From: Armatimonadota bacterium
Lineage (GTDB): Bacteria; Armatimonadota; Zipacnadia; Zipacnadales; JABUFB01
Direction of reading: 5' to 3'
Length of the DNA: 64,000 nt
Assembly: GCA_013314775.1 (NCBI GenBank)
Contig: JABUFB010000005.1
Location: 248,001 to 312,000 of the forward strand
The notes under the pieces were generated by a model. It worked only from the letters and a program-made list of their open reading frames with translations, had not been told where the DNA came from and did not search any database. Positions 8,970 through 14,501 of this stretch are shown in pieces; the stretch's first letter is position 1, and the number at the start of each line of letters is the position of its first letter. The position numbers and the translations under genes are program-made.

Positions 8970-9440
8970 TCAGCCTTCAATGTCCGCCAATATGTCCGAA
9001 ACAGCGGGAATGTCCGCCATTGTCCTTCCGTAGTGCGCGGAGCGCACCACTCCTTCCCGATCTACCAGCACCATGGCGGGCATGCGACCAAGCTTGAAAA
9101 GGTTCACCTCTTGTCCGTACAGCTTGAGCACCGACGCAGAGGGGTCGGGAAGGCCTCGGAAGGGCAGATCGTGCTTGGCCCAGTACTGGGCAAAGCGTTC
9201 GGGGCTATCCGGCCCGAGAACGACGGGTTCGACACTTCTTGCTTGCAGCGTGGCATAATCCCGGCGCAACTGCGCCATGCTTGCGCGGCAGAACGGTCAC
9301 CCAAAACCACGGTTGAAGACCAGGAGAATGGCGCCCTTGCCACGCTGGTCGGAAAGACGAAACACTTCGCCCTTATGGTCGGGAAGGGTGAAATCCGGGG
9401 CCGGAAGGCCGATCTCCACGCGCCCGCTTTTCGGTCTCAT
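8970..9440 (-). CDS. peroxiredoxin-like selenoprotein candidate (in-frame UGA at residue 48)
   Basis: AhpC/TSA-type thioredoxin-fold protein expected to reduce peroxides or disulfides. From the ATG at 9440 (GAGGAGG eight bases upstream) to the stop at 8970 the frame is open except for one TGA at 9299-9297. Read through, the local sequence is NRGF-G-(UGA)-P-F-C-R, exactly where relatives have the peroxidatic Cys of an RGxxCPFCR motif. UGA therefore most likely encodes selenocysteine (residue 48), paired with Cys51 as a UxxC redox site. The product is 156 residues with a complete fold on both sides of the codon, including PAPDFTLPD before it and GRMPAMVLVD after it. A SECIS-like hairpin follows (9253-9280). 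It lies 13 bases after the heparinase-like gene and is probably co-transcribed. If UGA were a simple stop, only a fragment starting near 9278 would be made and it would lack the active site. Confidence 0.8.
9253..9280 (-). promoter_or_regulatory. candidate bacterial SECIS element
   Basis: Read on the minus strand, GGCGC (offset 21-25 after UGA) pairs with GCGCC (30-34) around an AGUU apical loop. An outer GCAU (17-20) pairs with AUGC (41-44), leaving a six-base bulge on the 3' side. Bacterial SECIS hairpins sit inside the coding region right after UGA with a G-U step in the apical loop about 16-37 bases downstream; this one has G27-U28. The match is by eye and has not been folded computationally. 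Confidence 0.6.
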
Positions 9441-9453
9441 GCCTCCTTCCTCC

Positions 9454-12400
9454 TCAGGGTTTCGCCACCGCCTGCGCGCCCTGCGGCAGCGAAATCGTCA
9501 CCGGCACCGGCGCGCAGACCTCGTATGTGTGTTCACCAGTCTTCTTCACACTCACTGAATATGGCCAAATGACCTCGTACCCTGGTCCGAAGTCGTAGAC
9601 GTCAAACCACGCGCCTTCCGGGAACTGGGCCGCGAGGACATCCGCGCCGGCGCCTCCATGGGCCTGCGCGTCGATATACGCGCCATCGCCGCTACGGACA
9701 TCGCTCAACGTGTACCCGGTCTTGCCGTCAGGACTCACCATCCACGCACCCTGATAATAGCCGTAGTTGTGCAGGGGGAACTCGGTTGCTGACCGTACCT
9801 TGTTGTCTGCCACGGCCGCCACTCGGCCGGTGCCGATGCGCGGGTCGGTGTACAGGACAAGCTCGGCTTCATCGCCGACCTTGCGCGCCCCGATGACTTT
9901 ATACGCCACGCGGCGCGGGCCGAAGCTGAAATAGATCGTGGCGCCCTCCATTGCACCGGGGGATGGGGGACAGGGGGCTATTCGCACCGTCTGGTTAGCG
10001 TAATCCGCCGACACCACGCGTCCCCGGTATTCACCTGACTGGGCCTGGATTCCGAAGCCGTTCTTCTCGAGCCGGGTGCCGCCGACCAGCGACATCGCCT
10101 CCGGCACCCCGTCTCGCTCGGCATACAAGCAGAAGCGCCCCGCGAACTCCAGGCCATCCCCGGTTCTGCAAGCGACTTCGGCGTCTGTAGAGTGAACCAG
10201 CGTATCCACTCGTCCGTTGGCCAGTGCGACCCGGCAGGCCTTTGCAGTCCCAACGCCCTCGGAGAGGGTGAGCATGGTGGTCGAAGTAATCAGCGGCTCT
10301 CCCTCATATGTTTCCAGCGCGCTCACGAAACTGCTCCGTACCGGTTCGGCGCCTTTCGCGTGCAACATCAACCATTTCATCTCATAGGGTGAGCCGCCGG
10401 ACGCCGCTTTGCCGTCGGTGATGTTGACCTCCACCGGGCTCCCGTCGCCGTTCGCGGCCTGAATCATATGCAGTCGCACCTGCAAACCATCACCCGTCTT
10501 GAGCCTCCAATTCGCCCACCACGGATCGCGCGTGGCTCCCTTGTCCACGTTGTACAGGAACGGGAAGACGAAGTTCACACCTCTCCACCCATAGCTGTGG
10601 TGGAGAGTGGCGCCGTGGTCCTTGAGCCACTGTGTATCGCCGTAGGGCACATCGGGTCCCGCCAGGGTTCCGCCTTCTTGTCTCTTGAGCTCAATGCCCC
10701 CGGTGGTGAAATCGCCTTCCTGGCAGTGAAATGCCCACCAGTGGTCCTCGCCGCCGCTCACATCGTAGAAGTCCACACAGTAGAACTCGGTGGGCGAGAC
10801 GTCCACCAGTGCCAGGGTCCGGCGCTGGCCGTAGTTTTCCGGCGGCGTGGCTCGGACCCCGTCCGAACCCAGGTTGTTGTGCGCCTTCGCCACGCACTCG
10901 GCTACCTGCGCGATCCCGGCATCTGCGAACAGTTCGCTGCGCGCGACCTGCGTCAAGTACGGGAACTGTCGCGCCAGGTTGTGGCTGGACCACGAGTACT
11001 CCCAGTAGCCCCAGTTGCGCGGGTAGCCCATGTGTCCCAGGATCAGGCCCTCATGCGCCTGCAGCCCGATGTCCATCAGGTCGTCCTGGTTATGCCCCCG
11101 CGCCCAGCCGTAGCGCATCCACAAAGCCCGCTTCGCGTCGCCTTTGCCGCCGCGCAGGATCGCGATCCCGTATCCGTCGTGCAGAGAACTCGCATCATTC
11201 CAATCATCGGGCCACAGTGCCGCCTGTTCCTCGATCTCCTGTCTCGTAAACGGGAAATCAGGCGATGGTCGCCACCCGGGTGCATTGGCCAGCGCCCAGG
11301 CGAACTTGGGTGACCTGAAGATCCGGTAGGCGTGCTCGAAGGCCGGGATGTCCGCATCGTGCCAGGTGATCTTGGGCAGCTTGTGGTACTCCGGGTGACT
11401 CCCGCCGTCTCCGATCTGCGGGAACGAGCGGTCGATGGTGACGGTATCCATGCAGAAGTCGAACACATTGCGGTACCGCACGGACTTGCTCAGGCTCGGG
11501 TACCGGTCTTCGGGGTAGACTTCGGGACGCATCGACCGGAGATGTTCCACAGACTCCACAATTGGCCCAAGCGCAGTCACATGCATCGAGTTGTAGCCGC
11601 CAGTGGACTCGTAGGGCGCGCCGTCCCGAAAGAACCCGTTGGGTACAAAGGTCCGCATTCTCCCCGCGCCGTCGTAGAGCCAGTCCATGAACTCGTTGCC
11701 GCGGGGGTAGTTGAGCACTTCGGCCATGCGGATCAAACCGCGTTGGTGGAATGGCTCGTTGGAATGGGTTGCCCCGTCCATCGCGGCCTGCATCCACACT
11801 GCGAAGAGATTCTCTTCCAGGAAGCGCCGCACGTCCTCGTGGGTCTGCACATCAATTCCCTTGCCCTGCAGGAAGGGGATGATCTCCTGATCTTTCTCAA
11901 TGTCCGGGAAGATGAGGTCGTACGCTTCCGCGTGGCTCCACTGGTAACGGGGTTGGTCGATGCAGTAGACCGTAAGCCCCGCGCCATACAGTGATGGCCC
12001 CTCGCTGAAAGGCGCAGGGCCCAGCCTCTCCACCTGTGATTGGCTGTTGCGGTGCCGGTGCTGGGTCATTGTCGCAAGGTAGGCATATTCCAGGGCGAGA
12101 CGGGAAAAAGCCACAAGGGCCTTGTGCAGGTACGTCTTGTCTCCGGTGGCAATGTACGCTCGAGCGCAATCCGGCGCCACCTTCAACATTTCGTGGCAAT
12201 ATGCCTGGTTGATCTCCGCAATGAACCCGTACCTTTGCCCTCCCTGCGGGTACCCGCCGCCGATGCCGTCGTCCGGGAATTCGCCGCTGGTCATGTCTCC
12301 GGCGCCGAAATCATTGGAGGGATACTCCTCGCCACCCACCGGACACTTGATCTTCCAGCGGTACGGAAACGATGTGTCCTTCTCCCACGGATAGTATGCC

Positions 12401-13020
12401 TTCTTCGCATAGATCTCCGTCCCGTGAACCGGGCACCCGTGGGACACGTTCACCCAGTGCCAGCGCGGGATGGTGCTGTCGGTCTGCAAGGCCCAGATAT
12501 CATCGTCGCTCATCGCGGCCCACTGTGACGCCCTTCCCGGGCCGCCCCCGGTCATGCGCGCGATGTCCGCGTCGGTGTACACCGTGCGCCCTTCCTTCAA
12601 GCTCGGCAGCATCTCGCCCAGCGGCCATCGACGCGGCAACTGGTAACCTTTGAGCTGACGGAACTCTCGCAGGTCGTCGTAGGACCAGATCGTCACCGGG
12701 ACGCGGATGTCGTACCCGCCGCCCGCGAAACGTATCTCCGCATTCTCCGCGGGCTTCACTGACCGGAAGTAGTACCTGCGCTCGGCGTGCTTCGCCGGCA
12801 GGGGTGTGCGGTCGAACAAGACGATGCTGTCGGGGTGCGTGACTTCCATCCTGGGCGCATCCACCGGCAGCGCCAGCACCACCATGAAGATGCGGTCAAC
12901 GCCCACGATATCCGGCGCGTAGGTCACCAGTTGCTCCATGGGTTCTCCCTGTCCGGTACACGCTGCTGCCACAAGCAGCAGCAGAGCTGTAAATACGGTT
13001 GTCAGCATTCTCTCTCGCAT
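9454..13020 (-). CDS. large secreted heparinase II/III-like polysaccharide lyase family protein
   Basis: The 1188-residue product begins with a signal peptide or lipoprotein signal (MRERMLTTVFTALLLLVAAAC; the Cys could be lipidated). After a short N-terminal domain comes a long helical toroid region typical of heparinase II/III-like and alginate-lyase proteins, with FIAEINQAYCHEMLKVAPD, Trp- and Tyr-rich helices and GGYNSMHVTALG near residue 560. The C-terminal third is beta-rich, as in the family's antiparallel sheet domain, and includes MRYGWARGHNQDDLMDIG. Such enzymes cleave uronic-acid polysaccharides by beta-elimination, but many members are uncharacterised and the substrate here is unknown. 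The start at 13020 has GAGGAAA upstream; an extension to 13416 only runs into the neighbouring gene. It sits between the ceramidase-like and peroxiredoxin genes on the same strand. Confidence 0.75.
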   Translation of the reverse strand: MRERMLTTVFTALLLLVAAACTGQGEPMEQLVTYAPDIVGVDRIFMVVLALPVDAPRMEVTHPDSIVLFDRTPLPAKHAERRYYFRSVKPAENAEIRFAGGGYDIRVPVTIWSYDDLREFRQLKGYQLPRRWPLGEMLPSLKEGRTVYTDADIARMTGGGPGRASQWAAMSDDDIWALQTDSTIPRWHWVNVSHGCPVHGTEIYAKKAYYPWEKDTSFPYRWKIKCPVGGEEYPSNDFGAGDMTSGEFPDDGIGGGYPQGGQRYGFIAEINQAYCHEMLKVAPDCARAYIATGDKTYLHKALVAFSRLALEYAYLATMTQHRHRNSQSQVERLGPAPFSEGPSLYGAGLTVYCIDQPRYQWSHAEAYDLIFPDIEKDQEIIPFLQGKGIDVQTHEDVRRFLEENLFAVWMQAAMDGATHSNEPFHQRGLIRMAEVLNYPRGNEFMDWLYDGAGRMRTFVPNGFFRDGAPYESTGGYNSMHVTALGPIVESVEHLRSMRPEVYPEDRYPSLSKSVRYRNVFDFCMDTVTIDRSFPQIGDGGSHPEYHKLPKITWHDADIPAFEHAYRIFRSPKFAWALANAPGWRPSPDFPFTRQEIEEQAALWPDDWNDASSLHDGYGIAILRGGKGDAKRALWMRYGWARGHNQDDLMDIGLQAHEGLILGHMGYPRNWGYWEYSWSSHNLARQFPYLTQVARSELFADAGIAQVAECVAKAHNNLGSDGVRATPPENYGQRRTLALVDVSPTEFYCVDFYDVSGGEDHWWAFHCQEGDFTTGGIELKRQEGGTLAGPDVPYGDTQWLKDHGATLHHSYGWRGVNFVFPFLYNVDKGATRDPWWANWRLKTGDGLQVRLHMIQAANGDGSPVEVNITDGKAASGGSPYEMKWLMLHAKGAEPVRSSFVSALETYEGEPLITSTTMLTLSEGVGTAKACRVALANGRVDTLVHSTDAEVACRTGDGLEFAGRFCLYAERDGVPEAMSLVGGTRLEKNGFGIQAQSGEYRGRVVSADYANQTVRIAPCPPSPGAMEGATIYFSFGPRRVAYKVIGARKVGDEAELVLYTDPRIGTGRVAAVADNKVRSATEFPLHNYGYYQGAWMVSPDGKTGYTLSDVRSGDGAYIDAQAHGGAGADVLAAQFPEGAWFDVYDFGPGYEVIWPYSVSVKKTGEHTYEVCAPVPVTISLPQGAQAVAKP

Positions 13021-13073
13021 CTGGTTTCCTCGTTCCGCCCTGCGCGGGATGTACGGATACTGGTTTGGGCACC

Positions 13074-14501
13074 CTACGCGAAAACGATCTGCAGAGCCCC
13101 TATCGCGGCATCGCGGATCATCTCGAAGGCTTCGGGGGATAGCTTCGCCCAGTACCGCGTGCTCGCTTCGTGTCCGCCGCGTTTGAGCGCCTCCGCGGAA
13201 GGGATGTACCCCACGTACTGGGATGTGCAGTGTGCGATCAGAGTGCGTCTTGCCGGCGACGCGAGTTTGATCGCCAGCCCAAGCTCCACGAACGGCTCGC
13301 CCGGAAGCCCGACGACAGCGTCGTCTCCGATGCGCAGAATCTGTATCTCGTAGTCGAGCACAGGTGATCGACGCCGCGCCAGTTCCACACTCCACTGGCT
13401 CGCTGCCGCCATCCATGCCGGGTCTATAGTCACCGGATCATTCCCCGTCACTTGCGGCACTGGATGACGAGACAGCACGTCCTCGCAATGCGCCCTTTCC
13501 TGGGACGTCAACTCCCGCAAGGGTATTGGCAGACGGGTGACATGGACTGCCAGGGCGGCTACGGGCTCGAATCGCGTGTGTGCCAGAGCGGTGCGGGCAG
13601 TCTCTGCAAGTCCTGCGCCCATGCGCCGGTGATCCGCCACGTACTCCGGGTCGAAAGGCGGCCACGGGTTGATGTTCCCGCAGGCGCCATTGACCACCAG
13701 AGCCGTGCAACCCGGCCCACAGTCGCTCTCAATCTTATCCGCCAGTGCGCCGGGCCAGTCCGCCGACACGAAAGGCCGGGGGAAAACATGCACCGGGTGG
13801 CAAGCGTAGTTGGCCAGCACCGACACGAACCCCAGCGCCTCATCGCGGAAGCTCAGAACCGCGAGTTCCGGGTCGATCGGGCCTTCGATGTACTTGATCC
13901 ACGTCGGACCGAGAGGCGCTTCCCACGTCGGCCCGGGCATTCCCACCGACCCGTCCGCTCTCACCGCCCGACGGTTGTGTGCCCAGCGACCGTCGATCGC
14001 ACTGACCGACCCAAGACACACCGGCCGCAGGCCTTCCAGTGCATGACCCACTGCCTCCACGCACCGCGAGGCCGCCCAACGGCTGTGGGAGTCCTCACTC
14101 CCGCGCACCCACTCCAGTTCGGGCGGAAGTTCGGGGAAGTCCGGGTCCAGCATGATGTGGCCCAGAGTCGGCGCCGAATGGGTCTGAGTTGCGTGGACCA
14201 TGATCGCGTCGGGATCCAGGCCGAAGCGTGAGGCGCACTGCTCCCGGATCCAGCCCGTGTATTGCCCGGTAATGATCGTTGCATCCACACAAAGCAGGCA
14301 GGCCCGGGTCGCCCCAAGCTCCAGCGCCAAAGCTCTCGCGTGCAGGGGGTCCCACACCTGCTGTGCGGGTCGGTGCCGGGCAATGTCACCCGCGAGATGC
14401 ACTCCCCAACGCGGGGTGATATCCACACTCGCCGCTCCGGCGCCCAAGGCCGGGCTCTTTCCGCTTGCCACGCGCTGCGCCTCCAAGTCGCCAGTGGGCA
14501 C
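13074..14501 (-). CDS. neutral/alkaline ceramidase-like hydrolase (N-terminal domain type)
   Basis: The 475-residue protein matches the metal-dependent N-terminal domain of neutral ceramidases: ASVDITPRWG near the start, MVHATQTHSAP (the His/Thr nucleophile region), ANYACHPVHVF with zinc-ligand histidines, and VVNGACGNINPW. Real neutral ceramidases cleave ceramide to sphingosine and fatty acid and carry a C-terminal immunoglobulin-like domain, which is absent here. Related proteins in environmental bacteria form a broad family of uncertain substrate. There is no signal peptide, so it is likely cytoplasmic. The GTG start at 14501 overlaps the TAG stop of the response regulator by one base, which implies translational coupling. 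Confidence 0.7.
   Translation of the reverse strand: MPTGDLEAQRVASGKSPALGAGAASVDITPRWGVHLAGDIARHRPAQQVWDPLHARALALELGATRACLLCVDATIITGQYTGWIREQCASRFGLDPDAIMVHATQTHSAPTLGHIMLDPDFPELPPELEWVRGSEDSHSRWAASRCVEAVGHALEGLRPVCLGSVSAIDGRWAHNRRAVRADGSVGMPGPTWEAPLGPTWIKYIEGPIDPELAVLSFRDEALGFVSVLANYACHPVHVFPRPFVSADWPGALADKIESDCGPGCTALVVNGACGNINPWPPFDPEYVADHRRMGAGLAETARTALAHTRFEPVAALAVHVTRLPIPLRELTSQERAHCEDVLSRHPVPQVTGNDPVTIDPAWMAAASQWSVELARRRSPVLDYEIQILRIGDDAVVGLPGEPFVELGLAIKLASPARRTLIAHCTSQYVGYIPSAEALKRGGHEASTRYWAKLSPEAFEMIRDAAIGALQIVFA

Follow-up and report, generated by a model that had tools for sequence, protein, structure and literature searches.

On the minus strand of the window (the whole 64,000-nucleotide stretch of Armatimonadota DNA analysed here), an otherwise intact coding frame is interrupted by one internal TGA codon (9299-9297, motif NRGFG-UGA-PFCR), and this raises the question of whether the gene is broken or whether the codon is read as selenocysteine (Sec). 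An earlier note, made from the sequence alone, had placed an AhpC/TSA-type frame at 9440-8970, interrupted solely by this UGA. These coordinates proved correct, and the read-through protein matches the Pfam AhpC-TSA domain over residues 10-134 (E 5.7e-23) in addition to the Redoxin domain. The ribosome site claimed for it is likewise in place, as a purine-rich stretch (GAGGAGGAAGGAGG) situated directly 5' of the ATG and overlapping the TGA stop of the upstream ORF (9456-9454). The features of the locus are as follows:

9442..9453, minus strand: ribosome-binding region, GGAGGAAGGAGG, from the sequence
8973..9440, minus strand: predicted Prx-like UxxC selenoprotein coding sequence, 156 codons, start ATG at 9440, stop TGA at 8970-8972
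9297..9299, minus strand: in-frame UGA, predicted Sec48; TGA in homologues, TGC/TGT in the same-phylum L135/L136
9288..9290, minus strand: Cys51 codon TGC, the second residue of the UxxC pair; TGC/TGT in all homologues
9263..9276, minus strand: predicted bSECIS hairpin GGCGC-AGUU-GCGCC, with a 5 bp stem, a 4 nt loop and G in the second loop position
9078..9080, minus strand: Pro121 codon, the thioredoxin cis-Pro position in RMPA; invariant in a 35-sequence alignment and placed by the AhpE and ResA alignments

UGA 48 is almost certainly read as Sec in a gene that is not broken. The central claim of the earlier note withstood each of its refuting conditions that could be applied to the genome and the homologues. 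We assign a probability of about 0.95 to the locus being a functional bacterial selenoprotein gene with hairpin-directed Sec insertion at this codon, whose product most likely bears a UxxC redox centre. We infer that in vivo the hairpin lying 20-34 nt 3' of UGA 48 would recruit SelB with Sec-tRNA(UCA), the tRNA having been charged by SelA with selenophosphate from SelD, such that the UGA would be read as Sec. The product would be a single-domain protein of the thioredoxin/peroxiredoxin fold, in which Sec48-Pro-Phe-Cys51 would constitute the UxxC centre, with Sec most likely attacking an oxidised substrate and Cys51 resolving the intermediate.

Descriptions of Prx-like UxxC selenoproteins date from 2005 (22 sequences from the Sargasso Sea survey, PMC1088965) and from 2008 ('Prx-like 1', pfam00578, 225 sequences from Global Ocean Sampling, PMC2398784), and their class is named 'Prx-like thiol:disulfide oxidoreductase' in a 2026 inventory (PMC13188914). 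As defined in the first two sources, Prx-like 1 combines pfam00578 with a UxxC replacing TxxU (PMC1088965, PMC2398784), and the window protein has both, namely the above match to PF00578 (E 5.7e-23) and UPFC. It also resembles Prx-like 1 in having a bSECIS directly downstream and known Cys homologues, and differs in belonging to a UPFC...RMPA subfamily (Chloroflexota, Smithellaceae, Coriobacteriia) that is unnamed in the available text of PMC1088965, PMC2398784 and PMC13188914. A literature search on this subfamily in Chloroflexota returned, in the text accessible to it, no paper clearly about it. By domain and motif the window protein is thus best filed, as a predicted member, in the class of Prx-like UxxC thiol:disulfide oxidoreductases. 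Its best NCBIfam match is the SelL-related redox protein model NF040769, which is matched by 35/35 members of the alignment; the window protein scores 80.5 bits against a curated cut-off of 120 bits, with residues 13-109 alone matched. As it falls below the cut-off of the nearest model, we regard it as an additional member of this established class, possibly from an unnamed subfamily.

The AlphaFold model (mean pLDDT 89, pTM 0.86) is, by VIA, closest to the AhpE and Bcp peroxiredoxins (Z about 22, rmsd about 2), and the sequence resembles AhpE and Bcp (PrxQ) over most of its length. The earlier label 'peroxiredoxin-like' therefore stands as a description of fold, with peroxidase function the less likely reading. 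Both the peroxiredoxin signature and the catalytic Arg are absent. Specifically, in place of PxxxT/SxxC(U) there are Val41 and Gly45 at positions -7 and -3 of Sec48, and the corresponding positions relative to Cys51 are Arg44 and Sec48. Pro121, at the thioredoxin cis-Pro position, occupies the column of the catalytic Arg of peroxiredoxins (Arg116 in AhpE). The earlier placement of the UGA at the peroxidatic position is unsupported, because the peroxidatic Cys of the solved peroxiredoxins PrxQ and AhpE falls opposite Cys51 and the Thr/Ser of their T/SxxC opposite Sec48; in an alignment with a thioredoxin-family CPYC protein, the partner of Sec48 is the first, nucleophilic Cys of CxxC. A CxxC-type motif with Sec first and the cis-Pro are shared with ResA and the thioredoxin family, whereas the fold score to ResA is lower (Z 19.5), and inspection reveals no evident signal peptide or membrane anchor before the domain. 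As judged from these alignments, the predicted active site is of the thioredoxin type on a Prx-like fold, with a chemistry that is most likely thiol:disulfide (selenenylsulfide) exchange. Because the fold is Prx-like, a true peroxidase of the Prx/AhpE kind, in which Sec is inserted and either Sec48 or Cys51 reduces peroxides, is a live rival. It draws on the closeness of the model to AhpE and Bcp, on the AhpC-TSA and Redoxin matches and on the Thr found three residues before Sec (RTFTU) in some homologues. We nevertheless consider it unlikely, given the lack of PxxxT/SxxC, the columns occupied by Sec48 and Cys51, the presence of Pro121 for the catalytic Arg and the thioredoxin-like combination of UxxC with cis-Pro.

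To return to the predicted decoding of UGA as Sec, homologues were collected from 84,980 species genomes using a query with Cys at the Sec column. Hits were ranked by similarity, with Cys forms not excluded by design. Of the 135 relatives that this yielded, codons were read in the best 80. The UxxC Sec site proposed in the earlier note was borne out: the best 80 of the 135 relatives, all from named genomes, show TGA at the Sec column together with Cys at the +3 codon in 80/80 cases. TGA also occupies this column in three further relatives (L101, L102 and L133), and two same-phylum forms with 44-50% identity have Cys codons there, TGC in L135 (genome G129) and TGT in L136 (genome G128). The best 80 of 135 come mostly from Chloroflexota (Anaerolineae), the other hosts among them being Smithellaceae/Syntrophaceae and other Deltaproteobacteria, Coriobacteriia and other Actinomycetota, one Clostridia bin and one Calditrichaceae bin; additional Sec forms occur in the same phylum as the window (genomes G014, G044 and G132). 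This GC-rich window has many isolated in-frame TGAs, as would suit a nonsense mutation, a pseudogene or a sequencing or assembly error at 9297-9299. Such an origin is nonetheless extremely improbable, as the same codon recurs in 80/80 of the nearest homologues, from independent assemblies and several phyla, purifying selection persists 3' of the UGA and the hairpin codons are frozen. In pairs with unsaturated dS, dN/dS 3' of the UGA is ~0.1 to 0.17, well below 1, implying that the sequence beyond it is translated.

The earlier note had also described an AGUU-loop hairpin after the UGA, and this was recovered as GGCGC-AGUU-GCGCC at 9276-9263. The published bSECIS model specifies a loop of 3-9 nt, a stem of 4-16 bp, a G at loop position 1 or 2, a spacing of 16-37 nt and an MFE of at most -7.5 kcal/mol (PMC13188914). 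The window hairpin lies within all of these limits, with its 5 bp stem, an AGUU loop beginning 25 nt after the UGA and an energy of -8.4 kcal/mol when its 14 nt are folded alone. As stand-alone evidence the hairpin was rejected, since a loose hairpin test admits 131 in-frame TGAs of the GC-rich window, and the longer stretches of 36-65 nt show no gain in folding stability over shuffled sequences (z about +0.5 to +1.2); an Rfam scan of the window gave no match. Across the 85 TGA-containing sequences, the hairpin offset and the AGUU loop never vary, and the stem keeps its five pairs in 81. The decisive observation is that the codons underlying the hairpin are synonymously frozen, with Leu58 as TTG in 83/83, Gln57 as CAG in 83/83, Ala56 as GCG in 80/81 and Arg59 as CGC/CGT in 82/82 (log10P about -47 for Leu58, -37 for Ala56 and -13 for Gln57), whereas at conserved residues outside the hairpin codon choice is for the most part unconstrained (median entropy ratio 0.96). 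The conservation of TGA in 80/80 homologues and the frozen hairpin codons together place the signal far beyond chance. L102 has a swapped stem pair (C-G for G-C) and L061 an A-U for G-C, and both the stem and the AGUU loop are absent from the Cys homologues L135 and L136.

The genome supplies the decoding apparatus. Within the 6.12 Mb source assembly (37 contigs) we found a tRNA-Sec gene over the cut-off (72 bits, anticodon UCA), a SelB match over the cut-off, SelA (E 3.3e-165) and SelD (E 3.6e-114), so that the Sec machinery which the earlier note had expected elsewhere in the genome is all present. The selD gene ends ~100 nt upstream of the tRNA-Sec gene (selC). TGA also serves as the stop of the selenoprotein gene, of the upstream gene and of 21/40 long ORFs in the window (counted mechanically, spurious ORFs included). 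Nothing was found in favour of a genome-wide reassignment of TGA to a sense codon such as Trp, which is extremely improbable in view of these stops, the presence of selC with selA/B/D and the occurrence of Cys, not Trp, at the Sec column of the non-TGA homologues.

Standard ORF calling reports 8970-9278 alone (102 aa, start ATG 9278), just as the earlier note had said a simple annotation would. That this short ORF, devoid of the active site, is the real product agrees with such calling but is scarcely credible, as ATG 9278 abuts and partly forms the SECIS, is replaced by CTG in some homologues and would leave aside P15, G24 and R44, the residues 5' of the UGA that are conserved in all homologues.

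The SelD match, too, contains a TGA in frame close to its N-terminus (MASAAGUAAKLEPE), at the site of the catalytic Cys or Sec of known SelDs, and is a predicted selenoprotein with UGA at residue 18 (L017:1480-2523; G000 contig C9, about 297,692-298,735).

The predicted selenoprotein co-occurs with selA, for which a match over the cut-off is found in 35/36 homologue-bearing genomes. Among 61 relatives, a TGA-interrupted redoxin match was detected in 11 genomes, all 11 with selA, and in 0/35 of those lacking selA (Fisher p 1.8e-5, uncorrected for kinship). Of the two genomes with Cys forms, G128 lacks selA and G129 has it. Within the phylum the gene is patchy, with a strong profile match in 11/291 genomes, some of them in a SelL-like side branch; the one genome of the same genus, 85% complete, shows neither the selenoprotein gene nor selA. 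The 89-row tree pairs the window protein with L133 (support 99/76) and, at moderate support (81/76), groups it with L101 and the two same-phylum Cys forms. This suggests replacement of Sec by Cys inside the phylum, and 81/76 is too weak to insist on it. Tentatively, and at slightly less than even confidence, we propose that the UPFC...LFKLGRMPA proteins form a distinct, almost-always-Sec subfamily whose centre lies in Chloroflexota and which lacks an NCBIfam model that would include the window protein at its cut-off, and that the rare same-phylum Cys members arose by joint loss of Sec and SECIS.

The kind of selenoprotein is already known, and the branch to which the window gene belongs is easily missed by annotation, which would yield a truncated fragment without the active site. 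As the window protein reaches the cut-off of no NCBIfam model, relatives in the poorly studied Chloroflexota and syntrophic Deltaproteobacteria are probably mis-annotated likewise. Furthermore, a hairpin frozen in 83 diverged sequences and absent in two Cys homologues offers a clean natural test case for the requirements of bSECIS elements and for the question of how Sec is lost.

A second, SelL-like group in the same phylum (L104/L137, L138, L139 and L140) comprises both Sec and Cys members and has the motif RHxGxTFC, or RHFGCPFC in L139. Its member L138 has Cys, yet an AGTT hairpin (TGCGC-AGTT-GCGTC) is still present, which would fit a recent loss of Sec.

With regard to gene neighborhoods, the long minus-strand ORF at 9454-13416 (1320 aa as called, start uncertain; heparinase-type likeness by eye only) stops 13 bases 5' of the selenoprotein start, and the two may therefore be co-transcribed. 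When the flanking ORFs of 82 loci were clustered, even the commonest same-strand partner recurred in 16 loci at most, and we accordingly draw no operon inference. In ~8 homologue loci another Prx-like gene, marked by the motif RHFGCxQCK, lies near the selenoprotein gene, for example at L045:2400-2717, at L063:1452-1973 and, in L039, between about 2.3 and 1.7 kb ahead of the TGA.
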